From the NCBI GenBank assembly GCA_905160935.1, contig CAJHZI010000534.1:1725501-1789500 (forward strand): a stretch of 64,000 bases of DNA, read 5' to 3'. The notes under the pieces were generated by a model, which did no database searches, was not told where the DNA came from, and saw nothing but the letters and a program-made list of their open reading frames with translations. This stretch comes from Enchytraeus crypticus. Taxonomy: Eukaryota > Annelida > Clitellata > Enchytraeida > Enchytraeidae. Made by a program: the position numbers and the translations under genes. Positions within the stretch are counted from its first letter, which is position 1, and every line of letters starts with the position of its first letter. Shown here piece by piece: positions 7,821 through 61,900 of the stretch.

Positions 7821-10800
7821 AAGGAATTCTTCTTCTTTAAGTGCCGTGCCTGTTCCAAGCCTGGGCGGTCATGGTCATATTCCTCCATATGCCTCTGTTC
7901 ATTGTTGCTCTGATCATCTCTGTTTCAGTTAACTGCATCCATTTGCTAAGACTCTTAATAAACGTCATTCGTTGTCGACCCTTGCATCTTTTTCCTTTTA
8001 TTATTCCTGTCACTACGGTATTTTCAACTATTTTGTTCCGTATAATGTGTCCGAAAAATTTCATCTGTTTTCGTCGTATTCGGTTCAAAAGGTCACGACA
8101 AGTTGACATTCTTTGTAGAACATTTTCATTTTTAATGTGGTCTTTATAAGATATAAGCAGCATTCTTCTATAGAACCACATCTCTGTTACCTCAAGTTTC
8201 GATTCCATTACAGAAGAGATTGTCCAAACTTCACTTCCATATAACAATATTGGTTGAATGTAGCATTGAAGAAGTCTTTTTTTGGTATCAATTGATAATT
8301 CATGGCTTCTAAAAATCTTTGACATTCTGTTATATGCCTCCTTAGCCATGGCTATTCTTCTGTTTATTTCCTTGTCACATTTCCCATTTTGATGAATAAG
8401 TGACCCTAAATATATGACTGATTCAACTTGTTTGACATTTTGACCTCTTACATTGATTAAGCATGGCTGTGGCATTTTTAGTTTGCTGACTGTCATGCAT
8501 TCTGTTTTCTTCATATTTATAGATAATCCACTAGCCTCACTATGATATGTTACAATATCCAACATTTCTTGAAGTTTGTCTCTCGAGTCGGCAATAAGAA
8601 CTATGTCATCAGCATAACGAATATTATTAAGATTGTATCCTCCAATTACTAATCCTTTTATTTCACTGATATTCCTCATTATATTTTCACTATATAAGTT
8701 AAAAAGATCTGGTGACATTACACAGCCTTGCCTTACTCCTCTCTTAATTTTGCAAAAGCTACTGTACTCGTTCTCATATCTCATTGCAGCTTCTTGATTC
8801 CAGTATAAATTCCTAACACTTCTTATGTCTTTGCCATCTATATCCAATTCATGAAGAAGATCAATCAATTTGCTGTGTCTAACTTTGTCAAAAGCTTTGG
8901 TATAATCAATGAAACAAAGGAATAGATCCTTATTTAATTCTATGGCTCTTTCACACAGAATTCTTAGAACGAAAATAGCATTCCTTGTACCGGAATCATC
9001 CATAAAACCATATTGCACGGGATTTATTTCAGGTCTAATTTTATTTCTCATTCTCATTAGCAGAATTCTTAAATAGATTTTAATGACTACACTCATTAGA
9101 CTTATAGTTCTGTGCAGTTCACATTCTACCGCACCAGGTTTCTTCGGTAATGCAATAAATATCGATCTCAATAGATCTTTAGGAAATTCGCCATTGTCAT
9201 AAATGTCGTTTGCTATTGACGTGATCTCTTTTACGCTAAATTCTTCCGTGGCTTGAATCATTTCTGCTGTTATGTTATCTGGTCCGCTTGCTTTGTTTCT
9301 TTTTAATTTCCTAATGGCATATCTAACTTCGTCTTCTAAGATTTTAGGACCTGCTATTTCTTTAGTTATTTCTGGAAGCTCCATTCGATTATCTTTAAAA
9401 AGGTCATCGATATACTCTGACCATCTATCAAGTATATCTTTCTTTGTCATGAGAATATCTCCATTCTTAGCCTTGATGCATTTACTATGTGAGCAATTAG
9501 ATTTCCGATTAGTTATTTCATTTATCTCTTTGTACATTTTCCTTGTGTCTGTAAATTTCATCTTTTCAATCTCATCACATCTTTTGTTTAACCACTCTTC
9601 CTTTTCATGTTTGCAAAGTTTCTTTATTGCATTGTTCGAAACTCTATACTCCATACTTTCTCTATCTTTAATCTTTTGTCGTTCTTTCATTAATTGTAAA
9701 ATGTTCTGATTTATCCATTTAGTTTTCCTTTGCATATTCTTTTCTGGGATGATTTCATTTGCTGTTACTACTAATGCATTTTTGAAATTATCCCATTTGT
9801 TGTTGATGTTATTCAGACCATCATTTTCTGCCAATACTTGGAATCTATTTTGAACTTCTACTTTATATCTATATTGAATAGTTTGATCTTTTATTAGAGT
9901 GGAGAAATCTTGTACTAATGTTCTCTCTTTTCTTTCAATCTTTTTTAATTTTATAAGTATATTGCAAATTACTGGAATATGGTCTGAGTCACAGTCTGCA
10001 CCTGGATAAGTTTTGCAATTTCTGATTGAATTACGAAATCTTTCGTTGATAGTTATGTAATCGATTTGATTTCTTATTTTATCTCCAGGACTCTTCCAAG
10101 TATATCTTCTCCTTTTGTGCTGTTTGTACCATGTGTTAGCTATTATTTGATTGTGGCTTTGGCACCAATTAATGAATCTTTCTCCTCGTTCATTCCTCTT
10201 GCCGAGGCCATATTTTCCAACTATATTTCCATATTGCTCTTCTCCAACTTTGGCATTCATATCTCCCATTATAATTAAGATTTCTTGGCTTTTGCATTGT
10301 GATTTTGCTGTTTCTAAATCGTCATAAAATCGCTCGATTTCTTCTTCCTCACATTGGGCTGTGGGAGCATATACCTGAACAATATTCATTACGAAATGGC
10401 GTGTTCTGATTTTCAACAACATCATTCGATCCGAAATAGCCCAATGGCCATCAACACATTTTGATGTGATGCTATCTGTTATTATAGCCACTCCATTAAT
10501 ATGTTGAACACCACCTGAATAATACATCGTAAAACCATCCTGATTAACCCTGCCTGATCCAATCCATCTTGTTTCACACATACCCATGATGTTCACTTTG
10601 AGTCTCTTCATTTCTTGAATTATGTTACTGAATTTTCCTGCCTGGTACAGCGTTCGTACATTCCATGTACCTAAGCGTGTGTATCTTTCTATTTTATTAC
10701 ATTTACCTACTTGGTTACTTGATTTATCCAATTCCGAGACAGCCGTTGGATGACGGTCCAGTTTCCCCTGTCTTACACAAGATTCTGTACCGAGCGAGGT

Positions 10801-11060
10801 GTCCCACCTGTATTCAGTGTGTACCCCCTTAACGCCGTTGGTATTATTTTTATTTCCTTTGACCATGATAAACTATATCAAATACAGCGGTGGGCGATTA
10901 ATCCTTCCGCCAGGTATTTTTTTCGAGACACCATCTCTATCCAGCTGGCCGTTGACTTTAATAAAAAAAGTTCGTCCGCCCAATTTCTGATGGCTGGTCA
11001 ACATAGCCTTTTACTCTCCCGAGTCATCCACAAGGCAGTGGAGATTGTTTAGGTAACATA
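7815..11060 (-). mobile_element. RTE LINE, apparently full length
   Basis: Extent set by the intact ORF plus short flanks. The 3' flank (about 7815-7836) carries cttcttctttaagtgc, and the 5' flank includes the GC-richer 10870-11050 segment. I could not fix exact ends or a target duplication. Confidence 0.65.
7837..10866 (-). CDS. Intact RTE-type LINE polyprotein (AP endonuclease + reverse transcriptase)
   Basis: A 1009-codon frame with no interruption, about the length of complete RTE ORFs. The N-terminal APE endonuclease (about residues 60-310) shows RLGTWNVRTLY, MGMCETRWIGSG, IIMGDMNAKVG, NQIDYITI and CDSDHIPVI, covering the expected catalytic Asn, Glu, Asp and His positions. The RT (about 520-830) shows NKASGPDNITAEMI, FLCFIDYTKAFDKV, KRGVRQGCVMSPDLFNLY and the catalytic YADDIVLIAD. 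The C-terminal region contains LYGSEVWTI and KFFGHIIRN, typical of RTE and related elements. The enzyme nicks target DNA and copies its own RNA there. The intact frame implies recent activity. It differs in sequence from the degenerate RTE at 59-62 kb, so at least two RTE lineages are present. The start ATG at 10866 may not be the true one because RTE 5' ends vary. Confidence 0.93.
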   Translation of the reverse strand: MVKGNKNNTNGVKGVHTEYRWDTSLGTESCVRQGKLDRHPTAVSELDKSSNQVGKCNKIERYTRLGTWNVRTLYQAGKFSNIIQEMKRLKVNIMGMCETRWIGSGRVNQDGFTMYYSGGVQHINGVAIITDSITSKCVDGHWAISDRMMLLKIRTRHFVMNIVQVYAPTAQCEEEEIERFYDDLETAKSQCKSQEILIIMGDMNAKVGEEQYGNIVGKYGLGKRNERGERFINWCQSHNQIIANTWYKQHKRRRYTWKSPGDKIRNQIDYITINERFRNSIRNCKTYPGADCDSDHIPVICNILIKLKKIERKERTLVQDFSTLIKDQTIQYRYKVEVQNRFQVLAENDGLNNINNKWDNFKNALVVTANEIIPEKNMQRKTKWINQNILQLMKERQKIKDRESMEYRVSNNAIKKLCKHEKEEWLNKRCDEIEKMKFTDTRKMYKEINEITNRKSNCSHSKCIKAKNGDILMTKKDILDRWSEYIDDLFKDNRMELPEITKEIAGPKILEDEVRYAIRKLKRNKASGPDNITAEMIQATEEFSVKEITSIANDIYDNGEFPKDLLRSIFIALPKKPGAVECELHRTISLMSVVIKIYLRILLMRMRNKIRPEINPVQYGFMDDSGTRNAIFVLRILCERAIELNKDLFLCFIDYTKAFDKVRHSKLIDLLHELDIDGKDIRSVRNLYWNQEAAMRYENEYSSFCKIKRGVRQGCVMSPDLFNLYSENIMRNISEIKGLVIGGYNLNNIRYADDIVLIADSRDKLQEMLDIVTYHSEASGLSINMKKTECMTVSKLKMPQPCLINVRGQNVKQVESVIYLGSLIHQNGKCDKEINRRIAMAKEAYNRMSKIFRSHELSIDTKKRLLQCYIQPILLYGSEVWTISSVMESKLEVTEMWFYRRMLLISYKDHIKNENVLQRMSTCRDLLNRIRRKQMKFFGHIIRNKIVENTVVTGIIKGKRCKGRQRMTFIKSLSKWMQLTETEMIRATMNRGIWRNMTMTAQAWNRHGT

Positions 11061-12185: not shown

Positions 12186-15100
12186 ATGGTTGCCACACAA
12201 CCAAAGTCGTGCGCTGTTTGTAGAGAGAAGAATCATCAATATAAGTGTCCTAAGTGCCTAATCAAATAGTAAGTTATTTTAAAGTCTATTTAGAAATAAT
12301 TTGTTTTGTTAGACATTTTATTCATCCTTACTGGATAATGTATTGTTTAATGGAACGTTATTGTCGTATTTGATATTTAATTAGGTCTTATATAATAATT
12401 ATTCTATATCGATGAAATAATTTTATTATTTGTAATAAATTATTTTTAATCCCATTTATTAGTTCGCTAATAGAGTATATCTGTATAAATAGATAGTTTT
12501 GTATTGCGTCATGCTGTTTACTTATTACTCATTTATAAGACAACTAAAACAATGAGGATTCTATTTTCAAAAACGTAGATAAATGCTGTTAGCTTATTTT
12601 TAACACTCAAGCCTTCCATCTCAAGCCCATTCTGGAACGAATTGAGGAAGAATTATGAATAGAGGAAGTTTCTGCCAACTGAATCGTTTCTGTACTGTAC
12701 ATGGTAAATGCAGAGAAAGTAAGTTCCCTTGAGGTATTTGTGATTCTCCGTTTTGTGACTGCGACCAATCTCAAACCATGAAGCATATCGTTGAGGAGTG
12801 TCTTTTAATATGACTGTCAGATGGTCTGTCTACGTTAAGCTTGCATAGAAATGGAGCAGTTCCCTGGATTAACAAATACGCTAAATAATTATTAAATTTC
12901 ATTTTACTCCTCATCCAATATTGATAGCACAGATTTTGTATATATCATCTTAGTGTAAGCCAAAACTGATACTGATTGTTAATCTTTAAACGACCTTTTT
13001 AAGCTACGATACTAAAGAATGCCAGTTTTGCTGTTTGTTTTATTTACAGCTGTTCATTGAACTGCTACAAGAAGCATAAAGGTATGGAATTGTTTGAATT
13101 TAGAATTTTCAGGATTAGGGAAGTTGATATTTTATTATCTACGGATTTGTTTGCTCTAACATCTTTGGTAATTATTTGATCTTTAGTCAAGGGACTAAAG
13201 ATACGTATTATATACGTTTATTTCCGTATTATATACATATAAATCTGCTGCCACTACATGTCAACTGTACATCCTACAATACAAAATAGGGGTGCAAACC
13301 AAGCTAACGAAAACATTTAAGAATTAGACACTTAAACTTGCTGGACGCTGAATAGTTTAGTTAAATCTAACATAATGGTACTAAGTTGTTGTCATGTGTA
13401 GTCAAGCTTAGGAAACGTCCGTTTCCTCATCCAAGGATGATGTCAGGGACATCATCAAATCATCATGTAAATCAAATAGTAAATTGAGTTTCTTGTTTTG
13501 TTTGGCTTTTTAGGCTTTTCATGTTAAATGCACGCTATAGAAACATGATGATGCATGAAAATATCTATCACATATAATACCTCTTGTTTAGGCGCTTTGC
13601 TGTTTTTAGTTGATTACAGATATAGGTTTGAATATGATAATTCATGATCAGTCCTATATAATTACTTTAGCTCTATACACAGAGCTTTATGTTCATGTGG
13701 ACTGCTAATTAATTAATCAATTAATTAGTTATTGTTGTTGTGACTTCTGTTCAGCATTAACATTGAGGTAAATCTGCTCATAGTGATTGATTGATTTATT
13801 TATTGATTGGTGACTCATTGGCTTGAAGATTTACCATGTGTTGTAATTGATTTACTCTGATGTTCTATTTTCAGATAGTAAAGAATTTAAAGGAATTTGC
13901 TCTGAAGGAAGCACATTAGTTGCTGACGCAGCTGCTGTTGACACAGCTGCTGATGAAACAGCTGCTGTCATTGACACAGCTGCTGTTGACACAGCTGCTG
14001 TTGACACAGCTGCTGTTGACACAGCTGCTGTTGATGCTACTGTCATTGACACAGCTGCTGTTGACACTACTGTCATTGACACAGCCACTGTTGACACTAC
14101 TCTCATTGACACAGCCAATGTTGACACTGCTGCTGTTGACACAGCTGTTGCTGACAGAGCTGCTTATGAAACAGCTGCTGCTGACTCAGCTAGGGTTTCA
14201 GCTAGTGTTAACAGAGATACGCTTTTAACTCTGGCCTGCTCTAAAGAAAATACTACAATATCTGACCATGTTGTGGTGCCTACAGCTGTATACACTGCCG
14301 CAGTTGCTGCTGCTTCTCATTTAGCTGCCACTGCTGCAGCCATTGCTGCTTCACCACCTACAGCATCCTATGACAGCATTACTCATTCTACAGCTGCATC
14401 TCTGGCCAGCACAACAGCAAACAGCTGTACAACTGCTGTGAATTCTTCTACAGCTGCATCTCTAGCCAGCACAGCAGCAAACAGCTGTTCAGCTGCTGTG
14501 AATTATTCTACAGCTGCATCTCTAGCCAGCATAGCAGCAAACAGCTGTACAACTGCTGTGAATTCTTCTACAGCTGCATCTCTAGCCAGCACAGCAGCAA
14601 ACAGCTGTACAACTGCAGTGAATTCTTCTACAGCTGAGAACTCTACTGACTGCTGTAATTCAGCTGCTAAATCTAGCTTCACTGGCTGCTCAGCATCTCC
14701 GTGTACCACAACGGAACCCAATGGTAGCACTGTCATGTCTACCAAAGAACCATTTGTCTCTACCACTAACTCTTCACCTAATGGTAACACTGTCATTTCT
14801 ACCACAGAACCCATTATCTCTACCACTAACTCTTCACCTAATGGTAACACTGTCATATCTACCACAGAACTCATTGTCTCTACCGCTAACTCCTCACCTA
14901 GTGGTAATACTATCATGTCTACTACAGTCGACAAAACTGCATTTAAACGAGTTGATTCGTTTGACTCTCCTGTCACATCAGCTAGGTCAGAGATGGCCCC
15001 AGTGGTTGATTCAGATGATATGGAGGATGTAATACCACTCAAGAGGCTGAAGCGACTCGGTGTGTTCTGTAGTTGTTGTATTTAATTCAATATCTGATAC

Positions 15101-20322: not shown

Positions 20323-21303
20323 ATGACGAAAATGTCGAAATATACCGCCAATAGAGAAAGAATATGTTATATTCAAATCATACTGACCTTGAGTGTTTTA
20401 CAAGGTCATGAGGCTAGGAATGATCACGTGATAAGGGAGGAGCTAATATCAGTGGACACGCCCCTGGGTGCTCTGATGGGGAAGAGAGTAAGATTCGACT
20501 ACGGTTCAGGTTCGATTTTGTTTTTTATTATTTTTATTTGATGTCCCAGTAGCTCGGTGTCAGATAAAATATTGGTATTTTAACCGACTGTTCCTGACAG
20601 TTGTGGCTTCAACTCCCGGTAGAGCTGATAAGATAGTAAAATTTCGGAAATTCAGAGGACCGGTAATATGGACAAGTATCTATAAAATAAACTGATTATA
20701 TAAACATGGGATAGTAAAAGTACTGAATGTCTTCTCAGGCGATCTCTCTACGTTTCACTAATGAATTTAATTTTAAGTTTAACTTACAAATGCAGTTGTT
20801 GCCAAAGTTGTCTAATTTCTGTTAATTTTGATGTAATAAGTTAATAATACAGTAGGGCAAGATTTCCTGGGGGAAAATATTTCATGGTGAGGTGGGTCCC
20901 CTCTTGCTATCCTCAGCTCCTGCCTTTAGTCGCCTCTTACGTATACGCGGCAAATTGTTTGCGGTTTCCAAATTCAGCAGTGGTCCAACCACACCCGAGC
21001 ACAACACGGGCATCTGCACTGTATAATCTGTATTTTACAGAATCCCACAGAATTGTCAATGTCGCAGTAAACTGCTCAAGATTTAATCTAAACAAATAAA
21101 AGATCGCTTTACTTCTGTATAACAGAGTTTGAGGCGAACACGGTGAACATGTTTCTGGGGGTACCCTACGCCCTACCCCCCATCGGCCAATATAGATTTC
21201 AGGTTTGTTTATCACGTTCTTCCTCATTATAATGAGGAAGAACAGCTCGTACGTGTACTTCTCTGTCTGTCTGTATGTATATATATCTCTCTCTCTCTCT
21301 TAC

Positions 21304-21334
<31 letters not shown>

Positions 21335-24300
21335 CTCTCTCTTTCTCTCTCTCTCTGCCACACTCAAGTCAAAAGACGGGTTTTGGTGCAGTCGTCAACT
21401 TAACGAAGTTCAGCTACATCGAGCTCGTACAGTAAATGGTTGCGCCAAAATCTTGGAGAACAAGTGTTGACAGCTTTGAATGAAAAAACTCCCTATGTCC
21501 CAGAACATAGATTCAATGTCCAGAACTCAGGACGTGCTCAAATCTCTCACTCTCACTCTCTCTCATTCTCTCTCTCTCTCTTAGTGCAGTGCCACTTAGT
21601 ACAGGCAAAATATGACAAACTACGTACAGAGAAAGTAGCACGTTGGCAAACTGAGCACGTAGCAGTAGCACGTATGTACTACGCAGCTACAAACGTACTA
21701 CATATTTGCTCAAATATGACATGAGTATTTTAGGCAGAATAAAACCTAACAGTCGGACGAATAGCATTAGAAAGAATATCGGCTGTCTTTACAACAGCCG
21801 CGATATTTGAACGATTACGACATTAGCAAAATAGAATTCTAGACTTCTCCTCCGTAGAGGGCGCCCAATGTCTGTTTTCCAATTCACATGCAGTTTTCAC
21901 AGTAACGTAATACCTCTCATTTTATGATGCTTGCAATATTCCATTTTATTTACTATTTAATTAATAAATTCTTATTTTTCTATGATCGCTCTTGTTTGGC
22001 TGTAACGTTTTTCATAACCACATCATAGTTCATCCTAATTCTCATTCTGAGCAGAAATATTCAGAGGGATACTGACAGTTGGCATAGCCCGTGTTACGGT
22101 GCCGATATGCTGCTTTTATAATTACCAGGCTTGATGAAGTTGCGTTTATTAAAAACTCTCAATCTGTTATAATTACATCGGCTAAATTTATTTGAGCCAT
22201 CGATTCCTTGATAAAAAGCTGGTAAAGCTAAGATTAACGTCAGTTTCCTCACTCGAAAGCGATGTCATTGACTGGCGAGCCCAGGATTTGAACCCCGCAC
22301 ATAGTGATCCGCGGTCGCGCATTAAACCGACTTCGCCACTGGCTCCAGCTTGTGATTAATCTATAGATTGATTGGTTGATTGGGTAGGCCATTTATCGTT
22401 CGATGGATTGATTGATAGATACATGCTTGTTTAGGCTATTTATCGTTTGACTGATTGATTGATTATTTTTTATATTTTGTTTTGCTCCTTTAGTTACACA
22501 CATGACATACCGCATGTGCTACATGGTCTCCTTTCATGGTTGCTGTTTTTGTAGTTTTCGTTATTTCCTCCTTTCCATGGTTATTAGTAATCGTTGCCTT
22601 TTGTTGGCGCATCAATTGCAGCCGGCGCGGATTCAAGAATAACCTTCCAACACCCTCGGGATTTTTTTCTTTCAAAGCTGTCAACACTCGGTCTTCCAAG
22701 GTGGTCGCCCACAAAGTACTAACCGGCGCGATAGAGCTTAACTTCGTTCAACTGACGCGCAGCTTAACCGACTGCGCTAATCCCGCCCCCAAATTATTTG
22801 ATAGATAAGGCTACTTATCGATCGTTTGATAGACTGATTGATTGATTGACTGATTGATTGACTGATTGATTAATTGATTGACTGATTGATTGATTGACGG
22901 CACAGTCGCCACGCCCCATGAGCTCGTGGGCGGGTAGGAGGGACAGCACTAGGGTGGGGGGCGTGTGCCCCCAGGTCTCGTACAGTCACCTCACTGCTCC
23001 TCCCCTCCAGAGCGAGGATTGTCTCTATCTCAATGTATATGCGCCCCACACCGTGAGCTATTAACTATTTACTGATTGATTGATTGGATGTCAAACACTG
23101 TCAGCTATTAACTATTTACTGATTGATTCATTTGATGTCAAACACTGTGAGCTATTAACTATTTATTGATTGATTGATTAGACGTCAAACACTGTGAGCT
23201 GTTAACTATTTATTGATTGATTCATTAGATGTCAAACACTGTGAGCTGTTAACTATATATTGATTGATTGATTAGATGTCAAACACTCAGTAGCTCTATG
23301 GTCGTATCATGATACAGAATTCACTGAATTTGCTGAATTTACCGTGAAACTCACTCTGTGAAATATTGAGAAATAGACATATATTTACTGATTGCTAATT
23401 AATTCGTATAATAATTTATATACATACATTTAGCTATTTATTAATTAATATATTCATTTCTTTATTCGCCAAAAAACAGACAGGATCAAGATGCATCACA
23501 TATAAATGTATACGCACACATACACACAAAAACATAGGATCATAAAACAATCAAAAATGAAATACTAGAAACTTAATTGTATTAATGTATTAACTAATAA
23601 ATTATTTCTTAGTGATTATTGTCTTCCTCTTGTTGAGTCCGAGTTGTTTGAAGAATTGACCAACAAGTGACTGCACGTGTCGTAGAAGACGACTAAAGCA
23701 CTAAGATCCATACTATCGTCGTAAAGGGTATTCGGTTGGTGAGCGACTAGACTACAGAAATTGCTACAAAAATATAAAAGAATGGAAAAGTCTCAAATAG
23801 GGGATTGACTGATGAATGATATGATGTAGGACAGAGAGGATTTGAGACAGTCTATTCGTATCCCGACCCTAGTTAAACTGGGATTCAATGGATGATGATG
23901 ATGATGATGATGATGATTACTGTGTTACTGAGAGCGGCAGGTAGGCACTGGTATAGAGCTGTTGAGCTCTCTGATGAGGAAGAAGAGAAGAGACGCCCGC
24001 AAGTCATCCAGCCACAGAGGCTCCAGTGGATTGGCGTCATCTGCCAGACACATCGGACACCACAACAACAAAGATGATGATGATGATGTCGACGTCTACA
24101 TGATCTCAACGAATGCTGACTCAATGGCTCAGCCCGAGTCTGCATTGCTTCATCATATCAGTGATGGTGATATGAAATCCCGGAGTGATGATGATGATGC
24201 GCGTGATAAGAAAAGTGATAATCACATTTACGATGATAACTCTATGGAGAAATATGGTTACTTTCATGATGATGCTGCAGCTGTTGATGATGACGATGCT

Positions 24301-25058
24301 GATGATGATGATGATGCTGATAATGCTGATGATGCTGATGATGATGATGCAGCAGGTGATAACGTTGATGATGATGATGGTGGGGGGTACCCTGTGATGG
24401 TGTACATACACGGGGGGTCGTACGAGGAGGGCACTGGGGTGATGTATGATGGGTCAGTGCTAGCGCTACATCGGGTGGTCGTTGTGACCATCAACTACAG
24501 GCTGGGTATACTGGGTAAGAACTAGACTATGTCTATCATTATCTAATGCCTGGAGCCAGTGGCGATGTCGGTAAGGTGCTCGACCGCGGATCTGTATGTG
24601 CGAGGTTCACATCCTGGGCCCTCCCGTCACTGACTCAAACTTTTAAAATTTAAAAATCAATTTAATTAAAAATTAATTAAAATAAATAATAATTTAAATA
24701 ATAATAAAATAAATAATTAAAATAAATTTTTTATTTATTAAAAAATTAAAAAATTAAATTTTATTTAATTTCGATTCTAGTCTCTAATTGTTGTTATGTT
24801 ATATTATGTTATGTTATGACATCGCTTTCGAGTGAGGAAACTGACGTTAATATTAGCTCTTTAGCTTTAGCTTTATAGAGCGCTAAAGGCTGGGTCTGCT
24901 GGGTCAGAACTATAATATGTCTATCACTGATGTGTTTAACGTCAGGCTTACATGCCCAAGGCTTCTCTTCAAGACTCATTCGAGCTACCGTCACAAAATC
25001 AGTGATTTATATTCGATTTAAGAAGTCTCAAATAAGAGTAATGAAAATAACTGTTATA

Positions 25059-25106
<48 letters not shown>

Positions 25107-27999
25107 GATGATGATGATGATGATGTAGGTTTCCTGACTTCGGGGGATGCTCGGCTGAGCGGTAACTGGGGCCTAGAGGATCAGGTAGAGGCGTTGAGAT
25201 GGGTGCGGGACAATATTCGGGTGTTTGGCGGGAACCCTGACAGGGTTACCCTGGTGGGTAACAGTGCAGGAGCCGCTAGTATAGGGTTACTGATGACCTC
25301 ATCACTGGCTCAAGGTAACAACAACAATAAATACTAATAAAAAAACCAAAACAACAACAACAAAATTCAGTATAATTTGAAATCGTTGTATTTTGTGATT
25401 TCAAAATATTTAGATTAGATCTACAATTTCATTTTTAACCTAACTTGGAGCCTTTAAAGTCTATATAGAGCCACGTTTACGTAGAGAGATTAGAATGGCT
25501 CAGTAGCTCAGTGCGACGAGCGACAGGTAACGTCAAACAATTTTATTTGTATTTGTTTTTTTCACTGACATCGCTTTCGAGTGAGGAAACTGACGTTAAC
25601 CTTAAGCTTTATCAGCTCTACAATTTTATTTGACTGTTCCTGAGGTCCTGAGATCAATTACTGGTCAAGCTGATCAGAGAGTAAAGTCTCGGACATTCAT
25701 TGGACTGGTACCATGGATAGTAGACTATAAACTGCATAACTGTTTAAGCATGTTCTCATAAAAGTGCTAGAGATCATGATGGACAATGTTGCTTAGGCTT
25801 GTTCCACTCACTCTTAGCTATTTAAACACAGAAGTGCTAGAGATCATGATGGATGATGTTGTTGTTGCCCAGGCTTGTTCCACTCGTTCATAACTGTTTA
25901 AACATTTAAGTGCTAGATGTCATGATGGATGTTGTTGTTGTCCAGGCTTGTTCCACTCACTCTTAACTGTTTAAACATAGAAGTGCAAGAGATCATGATG
26001 GATGATTTAATGTTGTCAGGGCTGTTCCACTCGGCTGTGCTACAGAGCGGGTCGCCCCTATCGTTCTGGTCGCACTACGACCCGTCCCTGCTCTACACCG
26101 ACCACGAGACCTACCTCAGACACGTAGCTACCAGGGGGGGCTGTCCCCCCAGTAGACCCCCTAACAGGCCCATCTCCTCCTGGCCCCCAAGTTCTGCCTC
26201 TTCCTCCTTCCACCCCCCGTCGGTAGATGCGTTGGTCGCCTGCTTGAGGAACGTGTCGTACGAGACGCTCATAGAGCAGCAGTGGCAGGTGAGTGTCGTA
26301 AATTACTTAGAGATATGAATAAGTTACTTAGAGTTATGAATAAATTACTTAGAGTTATGAATATACTACTTAGAGTTATGAATAAATTACTTAGAGTTAT
26401 GAATAAATTACTTAGAGTTATGAATATACTACTTAGAGTTATGAATATATTACTTAGAGTTATGAATATATTACTTAGAGTTATGAATTAGTCACTTAGA
26501 GTTATTCATAAATTACTTCGCGTTATTCATAAATTATTATTTGACCTTATTTCTGCACGTGCTACTATTTGACCTCATTTCTGCACGTGCTACTATTTGA
26601 CCTCATTTCTGCACGTGCTACTATTTGACCTCATTTCTGCACGTGCTACTATTTGACCTCATTTCTGCACGTGCTACTATTTGACCTCATTTCTGCACGT
26701 GCTACTATTTGATCTCATTTCTGCACGTGCTACTATTTGACCCTATTTCTGCACATGCTACTATTTGACCTCATTTCTGCTCGTGCTACTTTTTGACCTC
26801 ATTTCTGCCCGTGCTACTGTTTGACCTCATTTCAGCACGTGCAACTATTTGACCTCATCTCTGCCCGTGCTACGGTTTGACCTCATTTCTGCACGTGCTA
26901 CTATTTGACCTCATTTCTGCACGTGCTATTATATGACCTAATTTATACCCAACAGCTCGATCCTCTCGTTCCCTCCTACTTCAACTTTCGACCACGTGTC
27001 GACGGCTCTAGTCTGCTGCCCCGCGCCCCTGAGCAGTCGTACCGGGAGGGCAGGTACCAGGCTGTGCCGGTGCTGCTGGGAGTGCTGGAGGACGAGTGGG
27101 CCAGGAGCCTGCCCTGGTTCCTCTCTGACATCGATGAGTCCCTTGTGGACGGTATAAGGATAATTAGTGCTAATTTATTATCTCATTAGTGCTAATTAAC
27201 TGTCTCGTTAGTGCTAATTGAATATCTCATTAGTGCTAATTTATTATCTCATTAGTGCTAATTAACTGTCTCGTTAGTGCTAATTGAATATCTCATTAGT
27301 GCTAATTTATTATCTCATTAGTGCTAATTAATTTTCTCATTAGTGCTTATTAACTGTCACACTAGTGCTTATTTACTGTCTAATTAGCGTTATTTATCTA
27401 TCTCATTAGCGTTAATTAATTATCACATTAAAGTGTTTTAATTTCCTCATTTCTGTTATTTAATAATCTAATTTGTACGAATTGATTATCTCAGTTATGG
27501 GACTTAAGTAGCTAATTTGTTTGTCTTAATTATTTCTTTATATGACTTTATTATACCAGTGTTTGACTTCATAATTGTCATCTGATATATTAATGCATCA
27601 AATATCACTTTTAGCTGATTTAATAATATCACTGTAATATTATGAACTAATCATCTAACATTTAATTGCCCGTGCTGTGTCCTGGACTCTGAAGAATAAA
27701 CAAACCGTAAACTGCACGTGACGTAAAAGGCGACTAGCAAGAACTTAGGAAGACAACGGGAAATCACCTCAGAAGCCACACTGTTCCCAAGCTATTGGCT
27801 GCCTTAAAGTGCGAATATGGCATGGCCTTTTGAGAAGAGATTAATTTGTTGATGGATGGGAAATGTGAGACAGGCTGAGAATAGGTATGTTAGATGATTT
27901 AAGACCCACTCGTGTGTGGACATAAAAAGAACAGCGGAAGGCAGAGAAGAGTGGAGGCGTTATATCCCATGGACCTGCCAGTAGGAAGTGCACTACCAG

Positions 28000-28042
<43 letters not shown>

Positions 28043-31000
28043 GGATAAGTCGCTTATGATTTCTCTATCCCCTGAAGCTACACAACCTGCAGTACCTGGA
28101 ATAAACCTATGAATAAACATCGAAATGGCAGCGTCACCGTCGGATTAATTCTCGTGTTTAACTCTCTGCTACATCTCACTCATCTTGGTTCTGCTTAGAA
28201 ATACAGTGTCCGAAAAGTTTTAATTCACACTTGTTTTGTCTTATTTAGAAATATTTGATTCGTATTAAATAATTTGTACCAATGGCCATTAATAAATGTT
28301 AACGTACATACACGCATACACACGCACACACACAAACACACACAAACACACACAAACACACACAAACACACACACACGTACAGACACAGAGCTTGACGAT
28401 GGTCTAACGAGACTGACATTTGAGGAGGCGGTGCGTCACGTGATCACAAAGAGATTTAAATGGCCGCCGGAAGTAGCAGAGGCCGCCATCTTGGAATACA
28501 CGCAATGGAGAAACATGGAGGACCCGTACGTCAATAGGCTGATGTTTAAAGAGGTCTGCTTATGAATGCTATAAGAAGATTGTTTTCTGGTTTAACATCA
28601 AGCTCTTTCATGGGTACTGAGTCCCGTTTTAATGCTAAATCTCATCATTTCAAAGTAAAGTCATTGACCTAACCTTGAAGAGCTATCAGACTCCTGTTTG
28701 TTAAATACACATTTGCTCACACTTAGCTACAGAATTTTGTATATATATTTTTTATAACTTTGAATTTATATAATTATTAACATCTGATAGAGGGTTGACT
28801 GTTATAGTTCATTAAAGTCTACAATCTACTTTAATGTCTAAAGATTAAATTATTAAGTTACAATTATGTTAGTTGCTTCGATATCAACTCAAGTAAGAAG
28901 TTTAAAATGTTACTTTTTATATCAAAATGCATAGAAATCGAAATTTCTTGCAACATTAGTGGCATATAGCTTCAAACTCTTGCCGTGTTTTTTATTTATA
29001 TTGATTTAATCATCTTGTTTCTTCATTTTGAAAAGTAAACATTTTGCAAATCTGAGATATAGTCTATGTTAAAAAGTTTGTTTAATATTTTGATAAATCG
29101 ATTACTGTTTGGTATTTAAATCGTGATATGACAGTTCATGAGCGACCTGACCATTCTCTCTGGATCAGTTAGACTCTCTAATTATCTCTCATCAGCACCC
29201 TGCACTCCGCATGTTGGTAACGTCTCTGAACGTGTTCACGACAACGATAAAAGAAGAAGAAGCAGTGCTAAAAGTGGCAGACTCGAGGGAGGGAGCTTAA
29301 GCTGCGCCTATGCTGGCAGACCACCTGTGTATCTCTATAAGTACAACTATCTACCCAGCCAGTCAGGGTCCAGGGTGAAAGATGATGATGATGTCAGGGG
29401 GGTTGTAAAAATAGAACCCAAGCCTCTCGAGTCAGGAACTGACAGTGAACCCAATAGACCAGTTAACAGTCGTGGTAGAAGAGATACCGAGCGTGACAGA
29501 GGTAAACAAAGAGCGAGACACAGTAGAAACATTAGTGATACTGAGCGTGACAGATACATACAGAGGGTGAGACACAGTAGAAACATAAGAGATACAGAAC
29601 ATGACAGAGACATACAGAGAGGAAGACACAGTAGAAATGGAGTTAAGAAACACAGAAATGTTGAATATCCTGGGGCTGAAGGTGAGTATGTTCCTAACAA
29701 AGCCAAAGTTCAGAGTAACAACAAGGAAAGTAAATCAGGTGAGCCTCAAGGAAATCTTAAGGGACAGTCAAGTTTTCCATCTTCTAAGAATGGAGAGTAT
29801 GAGACGAATGGAAGAAGAGAGGCCTATGGTTCTGAGAGAAGAAAGACTGAGACTGAAGAGCACTTGAGAAATAACAGGAACGAGCTGACGGATAGTGATA
29901 GAAACTTGCAGGTAGAAAGAAGAAGTGAGATAAAGAGAGATACAAACAAACTGGTAGAAAGAGCAAGTGAGATAGAGAGAGACACATGCATGGAGGTAGA
30001 AAGAACAAATGAGATAGAGAGAGATACAAACAAACAGGTAGAAAGATCAAGTGAGAGAGCCATCGGGGAAAGAGATAAAGAGAGGTTGAAGAAGAGAAGA
30101 ACAGAAAGAGATAACGTGGACGAGAAGCGAGAGAATGCGACAGAGAAGGAGAAATACAGTGATACAGAGCAGGAGATAGAGGAAGATAAGGAGGAGACAG
30201 ATAGTGGAATGGAGACGGGACTCAACCAGAGATCATCCAGCTGGTGGGGAGTCTACCACACGACGGAGTTGGACCTGGTGTTTGGCTCTCCATTCAGTGG
30301 ACGTAGGATCTTTGATCACCAGAGAGATGTGAGATGGAATGATGAGGATAGGCAGATGAGCAGAACTATGATGAAGCTGTGGACAAACTTCATTAAATAC
30401 GGGTTTGTTCTCCTTTCTTTAAACTATTTAAAACCTCGTCTAAAATTTTTTTCAAGACTGTAATAAGGTCTACAAGGGTACTTTACTTGTGGTTTTTCTG
30501 CTATTTTTAGTATTTTTGTGATGTCGTTGATTTGCACTGAAGCTTCAACACATCGTCTAAGTATGGACTATAGCACTTTAAACCTCAACGTAAATCTCTG
30601 CTAAACGCAACTGGAAATCTCCATTTTGTTGTCAAATCACGTAATCTTACGTAAAGTTAGTAAAACCCACTAATGTTTCCCTAAGAATACATGGTATCGC
30701 TTGTGCCATATCAGAGGATGAAAAAAATTTCAAATAAATATTTGCATATTGAATATAGAGTCAAATTGCTTAGCTCTTTTGGAATTGCACATTTTTTGGG
30801 AATTTTATTTTCGAACATTTCTATATAGATATAGGAGCTGCCAATAAGGCGATTTCAAAATTTGTAAATTAAATATTTTACTTATGACAATTAAAGTAAG
30901 TTCTGTGAAAGCACACTCTGATGACTCACACATCTTCAGTACCTCCTAGGCTGCAGAGTACAGCCTGGATTAGTCTTCGATTCTTCAATAGTTACAACTA

Positions 31001-31680
31001 GTTCTCATCTATCTCTGATCGTTACTAATATGAAGTCTCTGTTCTAACTGATTGAGTATAGTAAACAACTATTGGTTGATTCCTGTCTAATGCTTTCCAG
31101 GAATCCTACCCCTGAACCAAGCGAAGAAAATCTGGAAGGGAATAGGAATACGAGACAGAGTCGTCAGCATCATAAGAAACGTCACCATCGTAACAAGGCG
31201 TTGAGATTAGCGGCAGCTAATTCTAATGACAAACGTGCAGACTTTTCTATCACCAATGTTCGGAACTTCGTTAACGGAAGTTTAGATTCTAAGCCACTAA
31301 TAAAATGGCTTCCTACACGCCCAATTAAAACAGACTATTTGTATGTCTCACTAACCAACACAACAATGCTGCGTCATCTCAGAACTCGACAGATGTCCTT
31401 CTGGAACGCTCTCGTGCCACGCCTACTTTTGTTTTCGCGCTCTGCCGCAGCTAAGGCGAGCAGTGCGCGAGAAGAGACGTCGCGATTGGCTAGCGTGGAC
31501 GGGCGGGCGGGCAGTGGGCGGGGCGGCGCCGGGCATGCCCTGGGCGTGCTCGCTGTGGGCCTGACAGTGTTGTGCTTTGTTCTGCTGGGCATCAGCTGCG
31601 CATTAGCTTGCAAATATTCTAGACTAAAGGAGCGCCACGAAAGACACGTGTATGTAAATAAAATAACAAGAATGCTGTAA
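20323..31680 (+). CDS. Neuroligin-like transmembrane protein with large inserts
   Basis: Ten exons: 20323-20509, 21126-21202, 22906-23052, 23941-24514, 25129-25314, 26020-26288, 26956-27151, 28384-28553, 29135-30402, 31101-31680 (3654 nt, about 1217 residues; vertebrate neuroligins are near 830). Signal peptide, then [67 protein letters not shown] and [19 protein letters not shown]: close to neuroligins. VGNSAGAAS keeps the nucleophile Ser (about 374), with Glu about 527 (GVLEDEW) and His about 977 ([13 protein letters not shown]). Inserts: acidic, about 138-285; charged, about 677-966. [10 protein letters not shown] precedes a Ser/Arg-rich stalk, a membrane helix ([20 protein letters not shown]) and a tail of about 23 residues ending TRML. 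Junctions E/F match vertebrate site B. Uncertain: the exon 1 donor (alternative gtaaga at 20488) and exon 4 acceptor (24133 also keeps phase). Neuroligins are postsynaptic adhesion partners of neurexin. Confidence 0.88.
20590..20720 (+). mobile_element. SINE family B fragment in neuroligin intron 1
   Basis: Shares gagctgataagatagtaaa, attcagaggaccggtaatat and aaactgattatataaacatg with family B. Followed at 20830-21000 by another dispersed repeat (gaggtgggtcccctcttgc, gtttgcggtt, gtccaaccacac) also present at 46701-46865. Confidence 0.6.
21285..21357. repeat. (CT)n microsatellite
   Basis: CT dinucleotides with occasional tt interruptions, 80 bp after the exon 2 donor. A short second tract lies at 21540-21580. 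Confidence 0.92.
22218..22349 (-). mobile_element. SINE family A copy in neuroligin intron 2
   Basis: Inverted copy: ctaagattaacgtcagtttc tail, gcgagcccaggatttgaacc B box and ggctccagc head end. Confidence 0.82.
22490..22795 (-). mobile_element. SINE family C copy in neuroligin intron 2
   Basis: The minus strand begins gggggcgggattagcgcagt, then cggttaagctgcgcg, a tRNA-like head; the body carries aacactcggtcttccaaggt on the plus strand. A partial sense relative lies at 21364-21520. Confidence 0.72.
23053..23287 (+). repeat. 47-bp array beginning exactly at the exon 3 donor
   Basis: Five units of 47 bp starting at 23053, 23100, 23147, 23194 and 23241. Each starts with the donor sequence gtgagctattaactat (gtcagc in unit 2) and ends gatgtcaaacact, preserving a donor-like gtgagc in four of five units. 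Confidence 0.93.
23620..23917 (+). mobile_element. GAT-tailed SINE (family D) immediately upstream of neuroligin exon 4
   Basis: Matches 3545-3800 through gtcgtagaagacgact, agaaattgctacaaa and cgtatcccgaccctagttaa, and ends in (gat)n at 23888-23917, 24 bp before the proposed exon 4 acceptor. Confidence 0.78.
24546..24880 (+). mobile_element. SINE family A copy split by AT-rich insert
   Basis: The head and B box lie at 24546-24635; the tail catcgctttcgagtgaggaa resumes at 24820. The 180 bp between is nearly pure A/T with taaaataaat-like repeats. Confidence 0.75.
25061..25128 (+). repeat. (GA)n(GAT)n tract forming the exon 5 acceptor region
   Basis: GA run then seven GAT/GATG units and immediately the acceptor tag before GTTTCCTG. 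The acceptor has no pyrimidine tract on the plus strand; the repeat occupies its place. Confidence 0.9.
25630..25790 (+). mobile_element. SINE family B copy in neuroligin intron 5
   Basis: gctgatcagagagtaaagtc, cattcattggactggtacca and tgtttaagcatgttctcata, followed by three copies of a diverged ~80-bp unit (gtgctagagatcatgatgga) to 26000. A SINE A tail fragment lies just before, at 25568-25610. Confidence 0.65.
26297..26520 (+). repeat. ~20-bp minisatellite at exon 6 donor
   Basis: About ten copies of ttacttagagttatgaataa, starting 8 bp after the donor at 26289. Open in one frame only by chance of the period. Confidence 0.93.
26527..26945 (+). repeat. 28-bp E-box-containing array ending at exon 7 acceptor
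   Basis: About 15 copies of tgacctcatttctgcacgtg plus ctactatt. Most carry gcacgtgc, a CACGTG E-box, and the pyrimidine-rich cctcatttctgc. The array ends about 10 bp before the acceptor at 26955. Confidence 0.93.
27160..27430 (+). repeat. 21-22-bp array at exon 7 donor
   Basis: Units of tctcattagtgctaattwa beginning about 10 bp after the donor at 27152 and decaying toward 27430. Confidence 0.9.
27668..28000 (+). mobile_element. Short RTE-derived element with SINE-like head
   Basis: Head shares actgcacgtgacgtaaaagg with family D; the 3' part (27885-27997) matches the RTE 3' end (gatgatttaagacccactcg, agtggaggcgttatatccca, acctgccagtaggaagtgca) and runs into a (GA)n tract at 28003-28038. Confidence 0.75.
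28305..28378 (+). repeat. (CACAAA)n tract at exon 8 acceptor
   Basis: cacacacaaa repeats ending 5 bp before the acceptor at 28383. Confidence 0.9.
29480..30060 (+). repeat. Coding minisatellites in neuroligin exon 9
   Basis: An 18-residue (54-bp) unit, DTERDRxxQRxRHSRNIx, occurs three times (about 29480-29640). A 14-residue (42-bp) unit of type [13 protein letters not shown] occurs about four times (29910-30060). Strongly Arg/Glu/Ser/Asp-rich, hydrophilic, probably disordered or helical. Confidence 0.85.
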
Positions 31681-32885: not shown

Positions 32886-34723
32886 CTAAGTAAGTACAAA
32901 AGGTGGAACACACGTGACGTTGTAGAGATCATTCTCTAATTGACTCAAATCATTTCCAGCATATGATTCAGAAAACAAAATAGCGCCTAAATCCGACACC
33001 ACATATTCAAGTTGACGTCTTAATTCATCCTTACTCTCGGTCACCGTCACTCCAAATCCAACAATCCGCACTCCAGAACTCTTCAGCTTATCCGTCACTA
33101 TCCCTACCTCCCGAGTTAATCCGGTGCTGAATCCATGCGTGATGATGACAGCAACTTGAGTCCTACTAGTGGTTCCTCTATCCCAGAACACCTGACTCTC
33201 AGAGATCCGTAGCGAGTCCTCGAGTGTCGCCCACTGGCTGGCGGTCTGGAAGTTAGCCTTGCGGAAAGCCATCTGCTTGGCCATGAGGCTTGTGTCGTTG
33301 TAGAGGTTCCAGACGATCGAGTCGTTGACTCCGCCGCTACCGAACCTGAGGAGAGCTACTCGAGAGCCGGAGGGGCTGACGTTGTAGACTGGGATAAAGT
33401 CAGCCAGGAAGTACATGAGGCTGTACCAGTTGTAGGAAGGAGTGGCTGCAGGGCTGGAGCTGAGGGTGGGGTCCATATTCACGATGAAGGCGATGTCAAG
33501 CGGGTGTTCGCAGGTCTCTATACAACAGTAGACGTAGGAAATATATTCAATCAAAAAATAAGAATTTAACGTCCGGTTCCTCGTCATTGGGCAATGTCAG
33601 GGACGTCATATTAGAGTCGTCTATCATGTTCTGTATCTTTTATATTTCTACTTTGTCTCACTCTCTCTCTCTTTGACTCTGTCATGTTCTGTGTCTCTAA
33701 TGTTTCTACAGTGTCTCACTCCTTGTAAGCCTTGTAGTCGCAGGTCTTTATAAAACAGTAAAACAGCATAAGCTGTGAAAGAGAGCTGAAAGTTAAAATT
33801 AAGGAGTTGTAAATCATATATCATATATAACCTGCTAATAAACACTGCGAGATTAATTGGAACATGACAGTGCATATAATAATCTCGCACTCTGTGGCTG
33901 TGCTGCTTTGTGAACACCTCTTCGATCAATCGATTGCTAGTTCAATCTACCTCTACCATTTTTTGATCACCGTACTGGCTTTCGTTTAGGACCCTTACTT
34001 CTCCTCAGCACATTTCTTTCGCAGATTGGTCTGGGTGAATTGATCTGTAATGATGTGTACTGTTGGGGACGTCCCTGACATCATCCCTGGATGAGGAAAC
34101 GGACGTTAAACCTTTATTATTATTATTATTATTATTTTCTTCAAAATGGACAGCATTAATATTTCTAAGCCATTACATAAACTCTTCCAGCATAGAGCTG
34201 CCAGGACTGGTTTTGTAATCGATGCTGTCTTGAACGATAAGTGTTATCGTTCAAGACAGCATCGATTACAAAACTTTAATTGTTATTATTTCTATTTTTA
34301 CTAAAATAATATAAGTGTTATATGATTTTATTGGAACTTGCTAGAACTGTGATGGCTTCTTTTCTTTAGTGCACTGCCAAGTGGCAGGTTCAAGGTACAT
34401 ATTCATACTCAAAGTCTGCTTTCTCGCTCCATAAGAGCACTCCCCAGATGAACAAGTTAATCCCCTCACAAAATCTGTGATAGCTATTTAATCAATAATC
34501 AAGTTGACAACACCATCTTCTAGCAAAGGAACGTTAAGTGAGATGTAAGATTATCTCATAGTATTAAAGATGATATCTGAGAGATCAAAAATAAAAAGGC
34601 AACGATTACTAGTAACCATGGATAGCAAAATGAGGAAATAAGGTAAACTATAAAAGCAGCCACCAAAAAAGGGAAACGTTATAGCACATGCGATTTGTTA
34701 AGTGCGTAACTCTCTCTCTTTCG

Positions 34724-58939: not shown

Positions 58940-61900
58940 ACAGGATAGTTTTCTCAGGGATTGACGCCCCCTGCCCGGTAAATGTCAGTCAAAGCTGAGG
59001 AAGGCATAGGGGGCCCACCTCGTCAAAAAGCACATCCCCCAAGAAAATAATGGTATATCACGACAAAAGTGAGCGCCCCCAGTCACGTGCACCCCTTAAA
59101 TGGGAAGGGAGTGGTAAGAATCTCACGGCCAGACAGCACCTTGGGTGCCCCACAGATATACCAGGAGGACATCCCATGTGCCCTAAAAGGATAAGTGTGG
59201 GCACATGGAATGTGAGAACTATGAGTGAAAGGGGAAAGTTAGAAAATGTAAAGAGGGAAATGGAGAAAGGGAAAATAAATGTCCTAGGGATGAGTGAAGT
59301 AAGATGGTTGGGAACTGGAGATTTTACAAGTGATGGGTACAGGGTTATATACTCCGGAGGAGATAAAAGGGAGAAGGGTGTGGCAATAATATTGGATAGA
59401 AATTTAAGTGAACGAGTAACAAAGATTCTTCAGTGCAGTGACAAACTGATGTTAGTGCGGATCAAAGCAGATCCAGTAGATTTGGTGTATATCCAAATCT
59501 ACATGCCTACATCAGCCTCAGAGGATGAGGAAATTGAAGCGATGTGCGAAAAAATAGAAGGAATGATTAAAGGAGAAAAAGCCACAGATCAAGTGATAGT
59601 TATGGGTGATTGGAACGCGGTGGTTGGTGAAGGGAGAGATGGAAATGAAGTTGGCGAATATGGTCTAGGAAAAAGAAATGAGAGAGGACAGAAATTGGTG
59701 GACTTTTGCAATAGAATGAGATTAGTAGTGTCCAAACTTGGTTCAAACATGAGAAGAGAAGGCGTTACATATGGAAGAAACCAGGAAACACAGGAAACGA
59801 GGGAAGATACCAGATAGGTTATATTCTGATAAAGCAACGGTACAGGAATAGTGTGAAGAATTCAAGGGCTTATCCAGGAGCCGATATTAATTCAGACCAC
59901 AATCTAGTAATGACAAAAATATGGCTTCAGCTGAAGAAAATACTTTAGAAGAAAAGCAGTAACAGATGAAATTTGAACGGATTGAACGAGAAAAGAAGTC
60001 AGTTTCAGGAAGCAGTGGAAAGAAAGGTTAAGGAAATGAAGCTAAAAAACCTTGTATCACAAGCGAGATGCTAGACAAAATGGATGAAAGGAGGAAATGG
60101 AAAAGTATTGACACCAGTCATGGCCGAAGGAAATATAGAAGCTTAAACAGTGAACTTAAAAGAATCAAAGACAAAGCAAAAGATCATTAGTGGAGTGAAA
60201 AGTGTGATTATTTAGCAGAATATTTTAGAGGAGGGAGGTCGGATCTAATATACCAGGAAGTCAGGATATTAACAAGAACCGATAAGAAAAAGAAAGGAGA
60301 TGCAAAGAACATTAGTATAATGGGTAAATATGGGGAATTGAAGACAGAGCTGGAAGAAGTAAAAGAAAGATGGAGAGAATATGTAGAGGAATTGTATGAT
60401 AAGGCTGGGAAACCAGTTCAAGAGGATTTTAAAATAGAAGAAGAGAATATCATAGAAGACGATAAAAGGGGCCCCGATTTAATGAAGGAGGAAATTTATT
60501 CTGCAATTAACAGTATGAAGGAGGGAAAGGCAGCCGGAATAGATGAAATCCCAGCAGAATTCTTGAAAATGTTGGAAGGAGAAACACTCAAAAAGTTAAT
60601 GTAAGTATGTATGGAAGTGTACAGTACCGGTATTTGGCCAGATGACTTTACCAAGTCAGTCATGATTCCAATTCCCAAAAAGCCAATGCTGTGGAGTGTT
60701 CGGATTACAGAAAAATCAGCTTAATACCTCATGCATCGAAGATCTTATTAAAGATAATAAATAATCGCATTCAGTCGAAAGCAGAGATGATACTGAGCAA
60801 GACACAATTTGGTTTTAGGAAGGGATGCGGCACAAGAGAAGCAATAGGAGTAATGCGGGTTCTTTGCGAAAGAAGCTTAGAATATGGAAATGACGTTTTT
60901 GCATGCTTTGTAGACTTCGAGAAGGCCTTTGACAAGATTGATTGGATAACGATGATGAATATCTTAAAAAGAATAGGAATTGACTGGAGAGATAGAGGAC
61001 TAATTTTGAACTTGTACATGAATCAAAGAGCAGTAATCAAAATTCAACAAGAATACTCAGAAGAAGGTGAAATAGGACGTGGAGTAAGACAAGGTTGTAG
61101 CATTTCGCCGCTGCTGTTTAACATTACGCTTAGGCAATGATGGTCGAAGCCATGGAAGACTTGGAAGAAGGAATAAAAATAGCAGGGAATTTGTTACAAG
61201 ATGTACGATTTGCAGATGACCAAGGAATGGTAGCGGGCAACGAGATTGGACTGCAGAAGATAGGCTGAATGATACGGCATTGAGATATGGCATGAAGATT
61301 AATATAAAAGGGACGAAGGTTATGAGAGTGTCCAACAATAAAGGTGAAGTTAATATCACAATGAATGGTACGAAATTGGAACAGATAAGCAGTTTCAAAT
61401 ATTTGGGTCATACCATAACCATTGATGGGAAATGTGAGACAGAAATATGCAGTAGGATTGAACAAGCAAAAGCGGCCTTTGGTAGTAGAAAACTATTAAC
61501 AAAAAGTCTAAAGAAAGACACAAAGATAAAGATAGTAAAAACTTTCGTTTGGACCACGCTATTATATGGATGTGAAACATGGACCTTAAGAAAGGAAGAT
61601 ATTAGGAAACTGGAGGCATTGGAAATGTAGATTTGGAGAAGAATGGAGAGGATTAGCTTAAGGTTACAAATTTCAAAAGGTTACAAATGAGGAAGTCCTG
61701 GAGAGAGTTAGCGCAGATAGACAGTTGATAAATGTATTAAGAAATATGAAGAAGAGATGAATAGGACACATTCTAAGGGGGGAAGGTCTATTAAAAGGAG
61801 TCACAGAAGATAGCATGGAAGGAAAAAGAGGCAGGGGCAGGCCGAGATTAGGTATGTTAGATGATTTAAAGACCCACTCATATGTGGAAATGAAGAGGAA

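Follow-up and report, generated by a model that had tools for sequence, protein, structure and literature searches.

The closest described relatives of the gene considered here are the neuroligins, proteins with an esterase-like ectodomain for which loss of the catalytic Ser is typical and in which the C-terminus is expected to carry a PDZ-binding ending. The gene, predicted to comprise ten exons, lies in a stretch of 64,000 nucleotides from the annelid Enchytraeus crypticus (assembly GCA_905160935.1, contig CAJHZI010000534.1, positions 1,725,501 to 1,789,500 of the forward strand; hereafter the window, whose own numbering is used throughout), and its ninth exon carries an insert of 294 codons directly before the loop of the catalytic His. 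On sequence evidence, this exon expansion in a protein adjoining the neuroligins is real, unusual and probably coding.

Other insertions have been described in the same fold. Insect acetylcholinesterase 2 (AChE2) contains a hydrophilic insertion, of 31 residues in Diptera (PMC2784812), which resembles the present insert in being hydrophilic and in occupying a loop of this fold, but is far shorter. Honeybee neuroligin 3 carries insertions of 16 and 9 residues in a fold called insertion-tolerant, and its 16-residue insertion precedes the interface loop at 395-402, not the His loop (PMC2570956). In human neuroligin 1, the segment Phe496-Pro499 belongs to the neurexin/MDGA Site I (PMC5563082). A different comparison is offered by exitrons, i.e., optional introns within coding exons, which are described as having weak splice sites, an elevated proportion of lengths divisible by three and an enrichment in disordered regions (PMC4484396). 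The E. crypticus insert is likewise a stop-free stretch inside a coding exon, has a length that is a multiple of three and probably encodes disorder; however, splicing has been observed for the described exitrons, whereas the present locus offers candidate sites only, no better than those expected by chance.

The insert in exon 9

Exon 9 (29135..30402, + strand; 1268 nt) is preceded by AG, has GT directly after it, and encodes elements of the esterase fold on both sides of the insert, as a preliminary description of this DNA had stated. The insert itself (29354..30235, +; 882 nt) lies between VYLYKYNYL and SSWWGVYH. The first of these strands had been placed near residue 670, which agrees with its position at about residue 665 in the ten-exon model. 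The insert, whose composition includes 45 R, 44 E, 26 S, 23 K, 23 D, and 22 N, is charged but nearly neutral in sum, with 67 acidic against 68 basic residues, a charged fraction of 0.459, a net charge of 0.003, and no patterning of the charges. Judged from this composition, the insert is probably a disordered polyampholyte. At the DNA level, purines account for 72% of the insert, and two purine-rich tandem arrays occur within it, three in-frame units of 54 bp (18 residues; 29468..29629, +) and four in-frame units of 42 bp (14 residues; 29891..30058, +), each period being a multiple of three. Both the earlier estimate of about 290 Arg/Glu/Ser/Asp-rich residues and the recognition of 18- and 14-residue internal repeats were thereby borne out.

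No match to the insert was found in Pfam, NCBIfam or the PDB sequences. For one junction of 33 bases within the insert, the genome contains a single occurrence when up to 3 mismatches are allowed, and no second haplotype copy of that junction was seen. Furin-type motifs (RGRR in the insert and RKKR in exon 4) were set aside because, by our own arithmetic, an Arg-rich insert yields one or two of them by chance.

The coding status of the insert was assessed with dinucleotide shuffles (n = 4000) in which stops were counted in the reading frame. The purine richness makes stops rarer in the insert, and such shuffles take account of this. Against an expectation of 19.7 stops, the reading frame contains none, and none of the 4000 shuffles was open, so that the open frame previously noted across the 1268-nt exon holds beyond what composition explains. 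The result is the same for the 542 nt of the insert that lie outside the repeats (0 stops against 10.7 expected; 0/4000 shuffles open), and in this non-repeat part the use of bases also differs among codon positions (P = 2.8e-7). The remaining frames contain 16 and 45 stops (forward) and 6, 3 and 8 stops (reverse). For the three pairs of 54-bp units, dN was lower than dS (0.26/1.21, 0.21/1.56, and 0.10/0.85, respectively), and amino-acid changes were fewer than under random placement (Monte Carlo P = 0.013, 0.035, and 0.065, the pairs not being independent of one another). The 42-bp units, in contrast, gave no indication of protein-level constraint, the probability of so few changes ranging from 0.38 to 1.0 over their six pairs. 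By these measures, the frame is kept across the insert, yet the signal of protein-level constraint is present in only part of it. The earlier argument that the insert is not an intron by frame evidence retains its strength as an argument for coding; it does not reach further, since exitrons are also stop-free and an open frame alone does not separate a coding insert from an exitron.

Related genes and family placement

The genome searched comprises 524 Mb in 802 contigs, which are designated here by C-numbers. A six-frame search with the core of the protein gave 85 matches, with 88 of its 114 candidates scored, and the loop was read in eleven other genes (C417, C382, C593, C631, C376, two on C332, C628, C333, C452, and C166); matches which apparently span or touch the loop but were left out of this reading include those on C211 and C126. 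In all eleven genes the insert is absent. Between the strand motif VYLY and the His there are 306 residues in the present gene as opposed to 8-20 in ten of the others (20 in C417, 15 in C382, and 8 in C593), C631 having Arg at the His position, while the eleventh gene, C166, aligns across the loop with no gap of this kind. The earlier statement that neuroligins and cholinesterases have only a short loop at this place agrees with every same-genome gene read. The end of exon 9 has the same GG|GT phase in the homologous exons of C417, C593, C631, and C376 (four of four read), and its start falls in the same codon in C417; in C382 the exon ends earlier, past the His loop. Since the insert is missing from eleven of eleven relatives and four of them share the 3' intron phase, exon 9 is, on this comparison, an old exon that was enlarged from within and in frame. 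Comparison by eye also showed that the start phase of exon 5 is common to all 12 loci compared, and that GT stands at the place matching the end of this exon in 11 of them, the twelfth (C319) being unaligned there.

The predicted protein matches the Pfam family COesterase in three stretches (E value 7.4e-114, with a score of 382 bits where 27 is the cut-off). When the whole protein was compared with the PDB, neuroligins occupied the 11 best-ranked rows (best E value 2.3e-64), followed by carboxylesterases and cholinesterases among the best 60 of 155 sequences up to 1e-10. Exon 9 alone gave 24 weak matches (E value 0.14 to 1), all of them to a cholinesterase or carboxylic ester hydrolase and none to a neuroligin. 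In a midpoint-rooted tree of exon 5 (18 rows, 62 columns; 3 of 15 inner branches firmly supported), the gene clusters with C417, C382, and C593 (87/86). This four-gene group stands beside seven neuroligin rows (75/74) but outside them, and a further seven esterase rows are separated from the two together (94/90). When exons 5 and 9 were combined for 12 rows in FastTree, these four genes again formed a group distinct from all others (0.98), the position of the gene within the group being weak (0.38). The annelid rows were named neuroligins according to the motif GxGxG at the serine position, present in six annelid neuroligin-like rows, which we take to be an identifying mark; for C631 and C376 the naming also relied on exon 9, for which human neuroligin was the best match among five queries tried.

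In common with the neuroligins (NLGN1-4 in the PDB, and C631 and C376 among the annelid genes), the protein has an esterase-like ectodomain and an apparent membrane anchor, and the gene shares with them the intron positions at the start and end of exon 5 and at the end of exon 9. Unlike the six GxGxG rows, it retains Ser in the motif GNSAG, which is also found in C417 and C382 and is replaced by GHSVG in C593. The triad residues Ser311 (GNSAG, exon 5), Glu464 (EDEW, exon 7), and His912 are all present in a 1152-residue numbering, the His codon being located at 30257..30259 (+). Further differences are the length of the loop, 306 residues here as opposed to 18 in neuroligins, and the short tail which follows the apparent transmembrane segment (31534..31677, +; translation read by eye) and ends in TRML, which does not fit the rule of a PDZ-type ending. 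None of the four core residues of Site I is kept, the His, Tyr, Asp and Glu being replaced by Ser, Leu, Arg and Arg, respectively. The replacement of these residues does not by itself expel the gene from the neuroligins, because a bee neuroligin is likewise very divergent there (PMC2570956). From its paralogues C417, C382, and C593, with which it shares the exon 5 grouping and the Ser of GNSAG/GHSVG, the gene differs in its loop and in an Asp-rich expansion of exon 4 that is not as large in any of the three.

In toto, these characteristics give modest support to the view that the gene is a member of a four-gene annelid group beside the neuroligins and not a plain neuroligin. The designation "neuroligin-like" used in the preliminary description suits the ranking of the PDB matches, the shared introns and the position in the tree next to the neuroligins; it fails to convey that the Ser-Glu-His triad is kept, that the four core Site I residues are changed, that the group falls outside the neuroligin rows in the exon 5 tree and that exon 9 alone matches none of them.

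Other expanded loops and the surroundings of the gene

The ten exons of the predicted gene (20323..31680, all + strand) are located at 20323-20509 (exon 1, with an alternative end at 20503), 21126-21202, 22906-23052, 23941-24514, 25129-25314, 26020-26288, 26956-27151, 28390-28553 (exons 2 to 8), 29135-30402 (exon 9), and 31101-31680 (exon 10). The model has no stop along its length and its exons join in frame, giving a product of 1215 residues. Three expanded loops beyond the insert are held by this protein, none of which had been mentioned earlier. In exon 4, an Asp-rich expansion (23941..24378, +) amounts to 146 residues, or to about 43 if, with exon 3 ending at 23052, the last frame-compatible acceptor is used. 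Judged by eye, the corresponding exon has room upstream of the strand for at most about 8 residues in C417, about 20 in C382, and about 9 in C593. We take the loop concerned to be that of neuroligin splice site A, and presumably the insertion of insect AChE2 corresponds to this expansion and not to the insert before the His loop. Within exon 9, the helix end VRLSNYL is followed by about 39 extra residues before GRPPVYLY (29168..29311, +). Exon 6 (26020..26288, +) encodes a Pro/Ser-rich stretch of 33 residues between two cysteines, where neuroligins have about 12 between the corresponding pair. Because three further loops are expanded in the same protein, the large insert is, as translated here, the extreme of a trend.

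Two further members of the esterase family also have loop insertions of their own, before AVMVWIFGGGF in L021 (C370) and before VYSYYF in L013 (C333), so that loop growth is, to judge from these translations, recurrent in this genome. The introns of the present gene (window 23048-27493) hold minisatellites, among them arrays with units of 28 bp (14.5 copies), 21 bp (11.3 copies), 66 bp (4.1 copies), and 47 bp (5.1 copies).

Elsewhere in the window, a von Willebrand factor A domain is encoded by a frame (32889-33596, -) that is convergent with the esterase-like gene. A 1011-residue LINE-like frame with endonuclease and reverse-transcriptase domains is located at 7840-10872 (-), a frame of 272 residues that matches an endonuclease at 58999-59814 (+), and a repetitive open frame of 412 residues, rich in Ala, Thr and Ser and with no Pfam match, at 13847-15082 (+). 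A tRNA-like box (GGTTCAAATCC) marks a dispersed element, which may be a SINE and occurs at 15494, 16358, 19488, 22265 (-), and 38942; these five matches with at most 3 mismatches compare with 0 expected from shuffles. Between 58000 and 62000, the + strand has a strong excess of G and A (GC skew 0.33-0.38; AT skew 0.22-0.28). Outside the window, four nuclear contigs (C361, C424, C796, and C373) contain cox1-like fragments with stops, perhaps mitochondrial insertions. The mitochondrial contig itself carries cox1, identified with Pfam, and its remaining genes were named by eye from the translations; every gene is on the same strand, in the sequence cox1, cox2, cox3, nad6, cob, atp6, nad5, nad4L, nad4, an interval where the rRNAs would be expected, nad1, nad3, nad2, which is the arrangement usual in annelids.

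Readings of the insert

We consider it probable that the insert is a translated, disordered surface loop of 294 residues, grown by in-frame tandem duplication, in a membrane-anchored cholinesterase-like protein, where it would act as an access-tuning spacer. Growth would have proceeded by duplication of the 54-bp and 42-bp units without disturbing the frame. The product would be a net-neutral polyampholyte, tethered by its two ends to the fold surface and exposed outside the cell, and its bulk may limit or tune access to the nearby face while the core fold stays intact. That face would be relevant to partners because the segment just past the His loop belongs, in human neuroligin 1, to the neurexin/MDGA site. 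Several observations weigh against this proposal, among them the replacement of all Site I core residues and the unconstrained 42-bp array. Others concern splicing. With sites scored by general consensus frequencies, the nine introns of the model score -7.1 to 8.3. The best frame-keeping pair within exon 9 (29567-29788, 222 nt; score 4.2) falls within this range, and two donor-like sites in the insert, at 29682 and 29739, are strong (8.3 each). Partial internal splicing of the insert is conceivable from these donors and the 222-nt pair, and may occur.

Alternatively, the loop may be translated but functionless, having grown neutrally in a minisatellite-prone locus and a tolerant fold, possibly within a gene that is being lost. 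The presence of four expanded loops in one protein, the array lacking constraint, the minisatellites filling the introns and the changed core residues of Site I speak for such growth. That none of the ten exons is interrupted by a stop or breaks the frame at its junctions, that the triad residues and fold motifs are retained and that the 54-bp array is constrained speaks against it, and we regard neutral growth as rather unlikely. It is most improbable that the gene model has misread an ordinary intron as coding sequence. The splice sites of the gene are generally weak, so that site strength alone cannot decide against an intron, and the insert is purine-rich and repetitive, some introns of the gene also being repetitive; but there is no stop in 294 codons, the codon-position bias is present, and none of the eleven relatives has an intron at this point, for which reason an intron gain would be required. 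The three counts just named also led us to set aside an intron removed from every transcript.

The insert might instead be an exitron, with splicing setting the length of the loop, a possibility we hold to be improbable. In its favour, a GT-AG stretch (29362..30240, +; 879 nt, 293 codons) with weak ends is free of stops, has a length that is a multiple of three, lies in a long exon where it encodes probably disordered sequence, and would leave upon excision a loop of normal size, 13 residues. This pair is the best of 135 that excise most of the insert while sparing the His loop. Its score of -4.0, however, is lower than that of eight of the nine model introns, and a pair as good or better was present in 784 of 2000 shuffles, on which ground it was rejected as a meaningful signal. 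Optional removal of the insert is conceivable, though the candidate sites do not support it. The more particular notion of an exitron-like switch between a 13-residue and a 306-residue charged loop, placed beside the His and the partner face of a triad-bearing surface protein, appears decidedly improbable to us; no such splice-switched loop was seen in the neuroligin literature, which was surveyed incompletely.

If the insert is translated, as the proposal of an access-tuning spacer has it, a cholinesterase fold carries a disordered loop of about 300 residues directly before the His loop, and the gene would constitute a natural test of how the growth of a loop could tune adhesion or catalysis. 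Furthermore, an annelid group that stands beside the neuroligins and has a possible catalytic triad would be useful in establishing when and how the neuroligins gave up catalysis.

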